From Haloarchaeobius amylolyticus (GTDB lineage Archaea > Halobacteriota > Halobacteria > Halobacteriales > Natrialbaceae), in NCBI RefSeq assembly GCF_026616195.1, contig NZ_JANHDH010000001.1:744001-808000 (forward strand): 64,000 nt of DNA, given 5' to 3'. The translations under genes and the position numbers were made by a program. Numbering within the stretch: position 1 is the first letter of the stretch; each line of letters starts with the position of its first letter. This document shows, piece by piece, positions 4,718 to 8,042 of this stretch. Below the pieces are notes generated by a model. That model saw only the letters and a list, made by a program, of their open reading frames with translations, was not told the DNA's origin and made no database searches.

Positions 4718-5185
4718 TCACTCCTCGACGACGAGCTCGCCGACCATCCCGAGCGCCTCGTGGGGCTCGCAGACGTACTCGTAGGTGCCGGGCACGTCGA
4801 ACGTGTACTCGTACTCGAAGCCGGTGTTCTCGATGGGTTCGTGGCCACCCCAGTCCGCGCCGTCGGGCTGGGCGGTGACGACGATGTTGTGGGTGTCCGA
4901 CTCCCAGACGAAGGTCACGGTGGTCCCGGCGCTCACGGTCAGCGGTTCCGCCGTCCCGGGCGTGAAGACGTACTCCCCCTCGGGGCCGACCTCGACGGTC
5001 GCCGCGCCGGTGTCACCGGAGGGCTCCATGTCGGTCGGGGTGTCCGTCGGTTCCTCGGTCGGTTCGGCCGTCGTCCGCTCGCCCTCGCTGTCCGAGCCGA
5101 GACAGCCGGCGAGTCCTGCTGTCGCGAGCACGACACCTGTCGTTCTGAGCACTGTCCGTCGGTCGACCGTCGAATCGTCAGTCAT
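4718..5185 (-). CDS. Halocyanin-type blue copper lipoprotein
   Basis: A 155-residue plastocyanin-fold electron carrier. The N-terminus has a Tat-like RRTV start and a lipobox ending at C28 (AGLAGC), then a Thr/Glu/Pro linker at about 31-60 typical of haloarchaeal surface lipoproteins. The type 1 copper ligands are all present: H99 (DTHN), C139, H142 and M147 in YVCEPHEALGMVG. It would shuttle electrons on the outer face of the membrane. It lies 74 bases upstream of the DUF420 gene on the same strand. Confidence 0.93.
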   Translation of the reverse strand: MTDDSTVDRRTVLRTTGVVLATAGLAGCLGSDSEGERTTAEPTEEPTDTPTDMEPSGDTGAATVEVGPEGEYVFTPGTAEPLTVSAGTTVTFVWESDTHNIVVTAQPDGADWGGHEPIENTGFEYEYTFDVPGTYEYVCEPHEALGMVGELVVEE

Positions 5186-5233: not shown

Positions 5234-7009
5234 TCAGCGGCTGGAAACCGCCGGTGAGCGCTTAACCGTGTCGGCCGCGGAAGTCGTGTCCTGCTGTCGG
5301 TCCGGGCGCCTGTCGCGACCGTCGCCATCGTCGCCACCGGCGGCCGGCGACGCCCACGGTTCGGTCGCGTCCCAGATGGCCGGCGAGGACTGGTTCCGCA
5401 CCAGCCGCGAGGTCGGGACCTCCTGCTTGCCGAACGACGGCCCGGCCCAGAACACCTCGAGGGACTCCTGGCCCGTCCGCTCGAAGACGGTGACCGTTAT
5501 CTCGTGGGTCCCGGTCTCGAGGTCGATGGTCCCCGATTCCTCGCGGTAGGGGTGTGCCCCGTCGTTGTTCACGACCTGCTCGTCGCCGATGTACAGCGCG
5601 CTACCGTCGTCTGACCCGGTCCAGAACGTGTACTCGCCGTCCTCTGGCACCTCGACGTAGCCGGTGTACCGGTACGCGAAGGTGTCGTCGTCCTGCCCCG
5701 CGGCGAAGATGTCGAAGTCGGTCGTCTCACCGGTGCTGGTCGGCGTCAGCGCGTCGAAGTCCGGCAGGACGTCCCAGTTCCCATCGTAGTGCTCGTACTC
5801 GAGGCCCTGCTCGGTCGGACCGGTGGCGTCCGGGGCGCGCATCGGTTCTGCCGTCACCGTGGTGCTGGTCGTCTCGGTCGCTCCCGTCGACCCGAGGACG
5901 GTCAGCGTGACCGTCCGGTCGCCGGTCGACCCGTACTCGTGGTCGACGGTCGGACCGGTGGTGGTCGTCGTGGTTCCGTCACCGAAGTCCCAGCGGTACT
6001 CCTGGATGGCCCCGCTCTCGTCGGTCGAGGCGCTCGCGTCGAACGAGCAGTTCAGCCCGGCACACGTCGGGGTGAACGCGGCGGTCAGTATCGGCTGCCT
6101 GCGGAGCGCACTCACTCCGAGGGGCTGCTCGCCGAAGCTCGGCCCGGCCCACGTCACGTCGAGCACCTCGTTCCCGGTGTGCTCGAAGTGGGTCACGGTG
6201 ATTGGGTGGTAGCCCGCGGTGAGCGTCACAGTGCCGGATCGCTTTCGGTCCCCGTGCAGGCCGCGATTGTCGACCACACGAGCCCCGTCGATGTACAGCT
6301 CGCTGCCGTCGTCGGAGGACGTCGAGAAGGTGTACTGGCCGTCCTCTGGGACCACGACGTGGCCCCTGAACCGGAACGCGTACTCGCTGTCGCGCTCACG
6401 GACGGAGATGTCGAAGTCGCCGGTCCCACCGACCGCCGTCGGCGTCTCCGTCGAGAAGTCCGGCATGCTCGAGTACTGCGAGTCCGCCTCGTAGTACTCG
6501 TAGGCGACGCCCTGTTCGAACCGGACCGCGGGGTTCGAGTCCTCCGTGACCTCGTACCGTGCGAGCACAGCCGACCGGCCGCCACCGGGCGAGGTCCAGA
6601 CGACCTGGACCACGTCGCCCGCGACCAGCCCCGGCGGGTACGTCGCGTCCGCGGTCCCGGGACTGTTGCTCGCGTTGAGGCTGAAGGAGCTACCGGCAGC
6701 CACGCTCGTCGCCGACCCGTCGCCAACCCACGTCGCGTTCTGCGGTGCGCCGCCACCGGCAGGCCGGACCACGACAGACAGTGCCCCCGACTCGGCGTCG
6801 ATGGTCGCCCCGCCCTCGTGCGTGACGGCCACGACTCCACTGCTCGCGTTGAACGCGAAGCCGAACTCGGCCTGCGGTGGTGGGTCCTGGACGAGCGACG
6901 CGATATCGGCACCCGCGAGGAATATCGCACCGGCGCCGACGAACGCGACCGCGACCATCAACACCAGCGCGATCTGCTCGTTGAGGGCGCGGTCGTCCGT
7001 CGGGAACAT
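5234..7009 (-). CDS. Pilin-like surface protein with PA14-PKD-PA14 domains
   Basis: A 591-residue exported protein. The N-terminus (DDRALNEQ followed by a hydrophobic helix at about 12-33) matches the archaeal type IV pilin N-terminal family, with prepilin peptidase cleavage expected just after RA. An unassigned beta-rich segment runs to about 160. A PA14 module follows (about 165-305, VPEDGQYTFSTSSDDGS), then a PKD domain (about 310-385, YRWDFGDGTTT) and a second PA14 (about 400-535, VPEDGEYTFWTGSDDGS). The tail is Asp/Arg-rich. PA14 and PKD domains usually bind glycans or mediate adhesion, so this is probably a minor pilin or adhesin. Carrying such cargo on a pilin stem is unusual. Confidence 0.85.
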   Translation of the reverse strand: MFPTDDRALNEQIALVLMVAVAFVGAGAIFLAGADIASLVQDPPPQAEFGFAFNASSGVVAVTHEGGATIDAESGALSVVVRPAGGGAPQNATWVGDGSATSVAAGSSFSLNASNSPGTADATYPPGLVAGDVVQVVWTSPGGGRSAVLARYEVTEDSNPAVRFEQGVAYEYYEADSQYSSMPDFSTETPTAVGGTGDFDISVRERDSEYAFRFRGHVVVPEDGQYTFSTSSDDGSELYIDGARVVDNRGLHGDRKRSGTVTLTAGYHPITVTHFEHTGNEVLDVTWAGPSFGEQPLGVSALRRQPILTAAFTPTCAGLNCSFDASASTDESGAIQEYRWDFGDGTTTTTTGPTVDHEYGSTGDRTVTLTVLGSTGATETTSTTVTAEPMRAPDATGPTEQGLEYEHYDGNWDVLPDFDALTPTSTGETTDFDIFAAGQDDDTFAYRYTGYVEVPEDGEYTFWTGSDDGSALYIGDEQVVNNDGAHPYREESGTIDLETGTHEITVTVFERTGQESLEVFWAGPSFGKQEVPTSRLVRNQSSPAIWDATEPWASPAAGGDDGDGRDRRPDRQQDTTSAADTVKRSPAVSSR

Positions 7010-7127: not shown

Positions 7128-7233
7128 GCCGAGGCTGTCTGGTGTTGCGTCGTCAGTAAGTTGTGCGTGGGTGCTGTCCGTCAGGAGAGCACCCGCATCG
7201 TGTTGGTGGCCGAGTTGGTGACCACCGGTGCGA

Positions 7234-7318
7234 TGCGTGGGACCGGATTTGAACCGGCGGACCTCTACAGGACAGCGCCCTCAACGCTGCGCCGTTGGCC
7301 TGGCTTGGCTACCCACGC
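7234..7318 (-). tRNA. tRNA-Leu (anticodon GAG)
   Basis: On the minus strand the acceptor stem GCGTGGG pairs with CCCACGC plus discriminator A. The anticodon stem CAGCG/CGCTG holds the loop TTGAGGG, giving anticodon GAG. The T arm is GCCGGTTCAAATCCGGT. An extended variable arm (class II) makes the gene 85 nt long, right for leucine. No CCA is encoded and no intron is visible. Confidence 0.95.
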
Positions 7319-7352
7319 TCGCTGTGTCTTGCTGCACTTTCGTGTTCTGGGG

Positions 7353-7367
7353 GGATAAATAAAAGCC
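7353..7367 (-). promoter_or_regulatory. TATA element of the tRNA-Leu gene
   Basis: Read on the minus strand this is cttttatttatcc, a strong AT-rich box in GC-rich surroundings. It is centred about 42 bases upstream of the tRNA 5' end, which implies a 5' leader of about 15 nt. Confidence 0.6.
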
Positions 7368-7526
7368 TGTCTTTTCGTCGCCGCCGTGCGAGTAAGCATC
7401 GTGGGGTGTTTTTCCGTGTACCGCGGGAGCGCACGCCCGCCCTTTTCCGCGGCCGGTGGCGGCCCGCGGCGTGGTGGAACGCGAGAAAGCGGGGTATTCA
7501 AATGCCACGCCACGGTAGGGTCGGGT

Positions 7527-8042
7527 ATGGCGAAGTACTCGACGGGCGGTTCGTCGGGTGGCAGCGACGGTGACACCTGTGAGCTCTGCGGCGCGGCGAG
7601 CGACGGCCTGCGGAAGGCGAACGTCGCGGGCGCGACACTGCAGGTGTGCCCTTCGTGTGCGCCCCACGACGACGCACAGAAGCAGCAATCGGGCGGGAGC
7701 AACCGCTCGAACCAGCAGGACGAGTCCGACCGCAAGCGCCGGGCCGTCCAGAACGCCGCGAAGGCGAACGACGTCTGGGACGGCGACTCCTCCCGCTGGG
7801 AGGAGGAGGGGACCAACTACGACGACGACCCCCTCCCGTACCTCGTGAAGGACTACGGGAAGCTCGTCACCGAGAAGCGCCAGGCCGAGGGCCTCCAGCG
7901 CGGGGAACTCGCCGAGGAACTCGGCGTCGACGAGTCCGACATCATCGCCATCGAGCAGGGCCGGGCGACCCAGGCCGGCATCGGCGGCGGCCTCATCGCC
8001 GCGCTCGAGGACCGACTCGACGTGAAACTCGACGACTCGTAG
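7527..8042 (+). CDS. mbf1: Multiprotein bridging factor aMBF1
   Basis: A 171-residue archaeal MBF1 homolog, thought to act near TBP/TFB or the ribosome. It has an N-terminal zinc ribbon (CELC at about 17-20, CPSC about 20 residues later), a charged Gln/Asn/Ser-rich linker, and a C-terminal Cro-type helix-turn-helix (RGELAEELGVDESDIIAIEQGRA). The open frame extends 47 codons further upstream, but that part is arginine/glycine-rich and lacks family similarity. A TATA-like tattcaaa at about 7492-7499 points to the ATG at 7527. Confidence 0.9.
   Translation: MAKYSTGGSSGGSDGDTCELCGAASDGLRKANVAGATLQVCPSCAPHDDAQKQQSGGSNRSNQQDESDRKRRAVQNAAKANDVWDGDSSRWEEEGTNYDDDPLPYLVKDYGKLVTEKRQAEGLQRGELAEELGVDESDIIAIEQGRATQAGIGGGLIAALEDRLDVKLDDS

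Follow-up and report, generated by a model that had tools for sequence, protein, structure and literature searches.

Surface and cell recognition by archaeal type IV pili is poorly known. In bacteria, a collection of modular pilins based on the IPR012902 motif comprises more than 1,200 proteins with 264 architectures, and PA14 (IPR011658) and PF13385 are named as extra modules within the 15 architectures seen most often (PMC8179133). GspI-J-K is described there as a minor-pilin set, and PilC of S. sanguinis, a modular lectin pilin in a modelled PilA-PilB-PilC tip complex, has been shown to bind glycans (PMC9934059). For archaea, a 2016 census proposed DUF2341 proteins and unassigned large proteins as adhesins, the former at pilus tips by analogy with PilY (Makarova 2016, PMC4858521). 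The word "archaea" does not occur in the main text of PMC8179133, nor do "PA14", "PKD", or "lectin" in that of PMC4858521, and no description of an archaeal PA14-pilin was found in the open-licence PMC literature. Here, we describe a gene in a 64,000-nucleotide stretch of Haloarchaeobius amylolyticus DNA (the window; contig NZ_JANHDH010000001.1, positions 744,001 to 808,000) whose product carries a PA14-PKD-PA14 arm on a complete archaeal type IV pilin. This architecture is certain. With a probability of roughly 0.6, we interpret the protein as a modular minor type IV pilin, processed by PibD and acting as a glycan-binding adhesin.

A complete archaeal pilin with a PA14-PKD-PA14 arm

On the minus strand, the open reading frame (ORF) at 5234-7009 opens with an ATG codon and specifies a protein of 591 amino acids (aa); an earlier note on this DNA had its coordinates and frame right. 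Its proposal of an archaeal prepilin with PA14-PKD-PA14 is borne out by both sequence and predicted fold. Pfam detected PA14 in two stretches of the protein (whole-protein E value 7.2e-36, 123.6 bits, cutoff 24) and PKD_4 between them (E value 6.7e-18), and this was the sole PA14 ORF found in the window genome (two matches in one frame). The architecture is not a chance product, as full-length matches at 52 to 62% identity were present in three of the other 148 genomes (149 searched, including its own). What the note had overlooked is that residues up to ~156 make up a whole pilin by themselves and that the last ~48 form a poorly conserved tail of low model confidence. Its figure of almost 590 residues for the mature protein was close, the length being 583 if eight residues are removed. 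The size it found unusual is less odd than thought, given the modular-pilin design described in bacteria (PMC8179133).

A phmmer search against PDB chains aligned residues 4-151 with 8fj5 (E value 2e-14), the pilin in the solved archaeal type IV pilus of Haloferax volcanii. Because the Foldseek and VIA lists for the full-length model were filled by PA14 and PKD folds, the stem was folded alone. The resulting model has a helix at residues 6-37 and 8fj5 as its top Foldseek match (E value 2.2e-8); VIA-align gave a Z score of 11.2, a root-mean-square deviation (rmsd) of 4.1, and 33% identity with 132 of 133 residues aligned, the next match having a Z score of 8.1. Sequence and predicted fold thus agree on an N-terminal helix followed by a beta-sandwich head. 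A profile of six stems (four from PA14-pilins and two from LamG-pilins) was searched over 392 genomes of the order, and the best matches listed were mostly open frames of ~140-250 aa that covered nearly the whole 165-column stem, with a few longer ones. Since the stem is at least as long as most of the small pilins listed, the window protein can be regarded as a complete pilin plus ~435 residues.

The predicted processing site reads DDRA/LNEQIALVLMVAVAFVGAGAIFLAG (the slash marks the cut) in the window protein and D-[DE]-R-G/LNSQ[IL]A in its orthologues. It has the layout of a class III signal, a charged residue and a small residue followed by a hydrophobic helix, with R-[AG] in 4/4 orthologues. 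In the structural alignment, model residue 9 coincides with residue 13 of 8fj5, where the solved H. volcanii chain begins, in favor of a cut at DDRA/LNEQ. The similar site RALS is listed for the Sulfolobus pilins AapA and AapB (table in PMC4371748). In our judgement, prepilin processing is likely, with the cut predicted after residue 8. Candidate machinery was surveyed in seven genomes, six of the genus (G000-G005, G000 being the window genome) and one of a second genus (G011). Each has one match to prepilin peptidase (PF01478), above cutoff in six and below it in G004, and PilC-type matches occur in all seven, the window genome having five such ORFs (nine T2SSF matches).

A full-length model built with 14 sequences reached predicted local distance difference test (pLDDT) values of 75 to 94, by block, over residues 161-540 and was of low confidence in the stem and over the final 50 residues. 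VIA-align matched the first PA14 domain to the sugar-binding domain of an RTX adhesin (6m8m; Z 16.5, rmsd 2.4) and to MpPA14 (5j6y; Z 16.2), the second to the yeast flocculin Lg-Flo1p (4gq7; Z 16.2, rmsd 2.5), and the PKD domain to 6aem (Z 14.3, rmsd 1.2). The PA14 assignment is therefore backed by family score over both stretches and by fold, at Z scores of about 16. An Asp-Asp pair in each PA14 domain (233-234 and 467-468) is invariant in the alignment of the four archaeal orthologues; in a 14-row alignment including bacterial modules, the second pair is invariant and the first nearly so. In MpPA14, the corresponding pair D110-D111 holds a Ca2+ ion that binds sugar diols (PMC8092209), and by analogy the Asp-Asp pairs are candidate Ca2+ and sugar sites. 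The view that these PA14 domains are of the sugar-binding type, expressed already in the earlier note, agrees with this motif and with the adhesin and flocculin domains as closest folds, and by this analogy glycan binding by the arm appears likely. The whole PA14-PKD-PA14 stretch was also matched at 33 to 44% identity in Bacteroidota such as Hymenobacter, often several times per locus, the middle domain there being a presumed PKD.

PA14-pilins in the order and the phylum

Orders and families in the genome samples follow a taxonomy other than that of NCBI. Within the order, 33 PA14 ORFs were counted by hand in 30 of the 392 genomes. Five are pilins, namely the four orthologues and a protein of G262 with a different stem (26% identity over 107 residues, E value 0.002) and the domain order pilin-PKD-PA14-PKD-PA14. 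Five more, of 692 to 962 aa, are prepilin-like by eye, and Pfam found no Pilin_N match in them; these haloarchaeal proteins (L162 to L166) have one PA14 domain each and, in four of five cases, weak below-cutoff matches of Big_1/invasin type. The remaining 23 are neither pilins nor prepilin-like, except for a small pilin in G373. Several PA14 ORFs of the order were judged by eye to be GH3 glycosidases. PA14 scored below cutoff in G373, G289, G345, and G347, which are included in the 33 and excluded from the PA14-pilins.

LamG-LamG pilins were found in G004 and G005, two of the three genus members lacking the PA14-pilin, and a LamG pilin in G339 of another family, while G011 has both types; LamG was assigned by Pfam in G004, G011, and G339 and by 89% identity to G004 in G005. 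At an E value of 1e-20, G002 has neither. Two LamG domains, which are of the ConA-like lectin type, form the C-terminal part of haloarchaeal pilins noted in L007, L008, L036, and L180, in open frames of 762 to 946 aa (L008 by identity). In a 20-row stem tree, which is weak owing to long branches, the four PA14 stems were grouped (95/96) and fell with the LamG stems on one side (85/93). The idea that all large pilins form one clade was not borne out by this tree, in which the LamG stems are not one clade and the G262 stem lies on the small-pilin side. A tree of PA14 domains gave no decision on a single origin of all PA14-pilins; two of its long rows probably reflect segments that were cut wrongly, no segment was obtained from 3 of the 14 proteins listed from outside the order, and G440b was left out.

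Other modular pilins came to light in these searches. L159:737-1921 (from the window genome, G000:C1:2295443), L155, L157, and L158 encode pilins with a similar C-terminal domain of ~180 aa, recognizable by eye by the motif F[DNK]STxxG[DE]IHGIGL[AE]DD; Pfam gave no match for this domain in L159, the sole one checked. L154 and L156 encode a pilin stem followed by bactofilin-like repeats (Bactofilin at 15.2 bits, below cutoff, in L154; by eye in L156).

The class exceeds one gene and extends from other haloarchaea to more distant archaea of the phylum. A phylum sample of 392 genomes contained PA14 matches in 37, and outside the order these amounted to 36 ORFs in 33 genomes (counted by hand). Pilin_N was above cutoff in 15 of the 36, with lengths of 348 to 1474 aa and from seven families; the one from G706 passed narrowly at 25.6 bits. 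Six others are prepilin-like by eye and lack a Pilin_N match, ten have other N termini, and five were left unclassified (G499; the second ORF of G561; G536 and G600, cut at the 5' end; G615, with an in-frame stop). Since the same 33 genomes (~86 Mb) have 255 Pilin_N matches, or ~0.3% of genes assuming one gene per kb, the occurrence of Pilin_N stems on 42% of PA14 ORFs is, by this estimate, far above the random-gene rate.

Most of these PA14-pilins lie beside pilin genes. A hidden Markov model of the 15 stems (E value < 1e-10) detected a same-strand pilin gene within 500 bp of 12 of the 15, and in 11 an additional DUF7289-like gene was found by motif within 3 kb. Pfam confirmed Pilin_N in all six adjacent proteins checked and matched DUF7289 in 4/4, three above the cutoff of 27 and one at 26.0 bits. 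The order DUF7289-like, pilin, PA14-pilin holds in 10 of the 11 rows, the pilin being downstream in G606. By this arrangement the rows resemble minor-pilin sets such as PilA-PilB-PilC and GspI-J-K, and they are the best evidence for PA14-pilins working in filaments, with the qualification that they concern relatives and not the lone window gene. Same-strand rows, some also with PKD and LamG, are seen at L276:6372-10571, L271:7415-13745, L272:8458-13821, L269:9020-14385, and others. Prepilin-like frames of 212 to 241 aa at L264:1290-2012, L235:1768-2403, L224:1396-2082, and L225:1420-2094 have PA14 almost directly after the N-terminal helix, as if it replaced the pilin head.

Proposed function and its alternatives

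We infer that the protein would be exported by Sec and lose residues 1-8 to PibD, and that it would then be kept in the membrane by its hydrophobic helix until the complete pilin module is built into a pilus by a PilB/PilC machine. This would most likely happen at or near the pilus tip, since a C-terminal arm of such bulk would leave too little space along the shaft. The PA14-PKD-PA14 arm would then stand off from the filament, and its two PA14 domains would use Ca2+ coordinated by the Asp-Asp motif to bind sugars, thereby attaching the cell to glycans of another cell, to extracellular polysaccharide, or to a polysaccharide particle. Use of the window protein in or on a pilus seems somewhat better than an even bet.

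Several observations weigh against this reading. The window protein scores 22.7 bits against Pilin_N (PF07790), below the cutoff of 25.2 that three full-length orthologues pass (27.7 bits in G001, 25.3 in G003, and 35.5 in G011), and confidence in the stem model is modest (mean pLDDT 68.7, against 46 to 49 for the other four). No pilus gene was recognized next to the window gene, whose contig has its closest other Pilin_N match ~217 kb away, and absence from three of the six genomes of the genus means that the gene is dispensable. Among the relatives, 9 of the 15 PA14-pilins outside the order come from two families and so are not 15 independent events. No relative of PilB or PilC was found within 11 to 20 kb around the 15 loci (blastp with eight window-genome queries at 1e-8, the PilB queries chosen by a loose motif). 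With regard to the arm, PA14 is known in glycosidases and toxin translocation subunits, where it is not necessarily a lectin, and entries for anthrax protective antigen and glycosidases are also among the same-fold matches listed; the fold by itself is thus no proof of a lectin.

The lack of a recognized pilus gene next door would suit a membrane-anchored glycan receptor, which the earlier note had offered beside a tip adhesin. Such a protein would be cut by PibD but never enter a filament, its helix serving as an anchor as in the class III substrate-binding proteins of the Sulfolobus bindosome, and archaeal prepilin peptidases do also process bindosome subunits (PMC4371748). However, the head of the stem is that of a complete pilin, as in the H. 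volcanii filament subunit, Pfam found no ABC substrate-binding domain in the window protein up to an E value of 0.1, and 0 of the 4 neighbors run through Pfam is an ABC component. We therefore regard a receptor as unlikely, and of the two proposals the tip adhesin is favored by the complete pilin stem, by the peptidase and PilC genes, and by the gene rows of relatives. Alternatively, the protein might decorate a major filament along its length and not be a tip subunit. Against this stand the bulk of the ~435 extra residues and the surroundings of the related PA14-pilins, 11 of 15 of which have two other pilin-type genes nearby, as in a minor-pilin set; shaft decoration appears improbable. As to the ligand, the arm might be structural or self-adhesive, binding the cell's own S-layer glycans or other subunits and so bundling or spacing pili, and not binding foreign sugars. 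Two tandem sites could cross-link, and in Bacteroidota a single locus can contain several copies of the module. Sugar-binding domains of adhesins and flocculins are nevertheless its closest folds, and we consider a self-adhesive arm doubtful, even though like-to-like contact is another role of flocculins.

A glycan-binding minor pilin of this kind might be part of something larger. We speculate, tentatively, that a dedicated pilus-tip complex exists in this archaeal phylum, with a PA14 or LamG lectin pilin as its outermost member. The row DUF7289-like, pilin, PA14-pilin would then be the counterpart of GspI-J-K and of PilA-B-C, and the lone window pilin would be an exchangeable tip lectin replacing or competing with LamG tips. 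If this were true, cell-cell recognition could be changed by swapping one gene.

The locus and its comparison with known systems

The order PurF - GNAT - DUF420 - halocyanin - tRNA-Leu(GAG) - HVO_2718-like is kept in all seven genomes compared, the label PurF being our own and the other protein neighbors having been run through Pfam. The PA14-pilin lies between halocyanin and tRNA in four of them (G000, G001, G003, and G011) and is absent from three (G002, G004, and G005). G005 has a remnant in which residues 1-36 (47% identity, E value 2.6e-7) are joined to residues 517-549 (51.5%, E value 1.8e-7), the pattern left by an internal deletion. The remnant, and the finding of the gene at this position in a second genus too, favor an old presence at the locus with repeated loss since. 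A single tblastn scan for a phage origin found a relative encoded in 0 of 37 candidate stretches in viral_contigs. At the same locus, the GNAT acetyltransferase gene is in four tandem copies in G002 (L184:2316-4696), and the gap between tRNA-Leu and halocyanin in G004 (L185, ~7199-7930) contains, by eye, an apparent second copy of the 3' part of tRNA-Leu with its flank, seemingly a small tandem duplication at the tRNA. Features of the gene and its conserved neighbors are collected in Table 1.

Table 1. Features of the modular pilin gene and its conserved neighbors (positions in the window)
Feature	Position	Strand	Basis
Halocyanin-type cupredoxin, conserved downstream neighbor	4718..5185	-	Pfam, locus comparison
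Modular pilin gene, 591 aa: pilin stem - PA14 - PKD - PA14 - tail	5234..7009	-	ORF, Pfam, phmmer
Residues 544-591, variable low-confidence tail, and stop	5234..5380	-	Alignment, model
Residues 391-543, PA14 domain 2	5381..5839	-	Pfam; fold match to flocculin Lg-Flo1p 4gq7
Asp467-Asp468, DD motif of PA14 domain 2	5606..5611	-	Invariant in 14-row alignment
Residues 305-390, PKD domain (spacer)	5840..6097	-	PKD_4; fold match to 6aem
Residues 166-305, PA14 domain 1	6095..6514	-	Pfam; fold match to 6m8m, 5j6y
Asp233-Asp234, DD motif of PA14 domain 1, candidate Ca/sugar site	6308..6313	-	Conservation; analogy with MpPA14
Residues 45-156, beta-sandwich pilin head	6542..6877	-	VIA to 8fj5; lengths of small pilins
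Residues 9-33, hydrophobic N-terminal helix of mature pilin	6911..6985	-	Stem model helix 6-37; 8fj5 alignment
Residues 1-8 (MFPTDDRA), predicted class III leader, PibD cut A8/L9	6986..7009	-	8fj5 alignment, orthologues
tRNA-Leu(GAG), conserved upstream neighbor	7234..7318	-	Locus comparison

The arm shares its fold (Z 13.2 to 16.5, rmsd 2.4 to 3.7 among the matches listed) and its Asp-Asp motif with MpPA14, MhPA14, and the yeast Flo/Epa adhesins. Identity to these PA14 lectins is just 12 to 21%, and the window PA14 domains sit on a pilin, not on an RTX adhesin or a yeast wall protein. The best sequence and fold match for the pair of PA14 domains is with the RsgI PA14 dyads of Clostridium (6qe7 and 6qdi), which likewise have two PA14 stretches per ectodomain. 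However, the solved RsgI chains of 291 to 295 residues are too short for an intervening PKD domain, and they belong to anti-sigma-factor proteins, not pilins. DUF2341 tip adhesins have likewise been proposed as large adhesins of archaeal pili (PMC4858521), and Pfam found no DUF2341 in the window protein. The stem has the helix and beta-sandwich of the H. volcanii pilin 8fj5, but that chain stops at residue 145, whereas the window protein goes on for ~435 residues.

The closest parallel in design is with the bacterial modular pilins, such as S. sanguinis PilB with a vWA module and PilC with a ConA-like lectin, which similarly combine a pilin module with a large C-terminal functional module. In the window protein, this extra part consists of PA14 and PKD domains, which are not pilus specific, after a complete pilin. 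Unlike in the bacterial proteins, the stem is of the archaeal Pilin_N or H. volcanii type with a PibD-type site; the window protein lacks the bacterial IPR012902 N terminus and had no N_methyl-type Pfam match up to an E value of 0.1, this model being one that we take as the equivalent of IPR012902. It is thus an archaeal variant and not a member of the bacterial list. A pilin that bears a lectin-type arm offers a concrete, testable candidate for an archaeal pilus adhesin, and such arms recur in seven families outside the order. If confirmed, this would extend the modular-pilin principle to archaea and make biofilm formation and partner choice accessible through simple genetics. Since bacterial modular pilins, some of them with PA14, have been described, the window protein is best read as an archaeal version of a known design.
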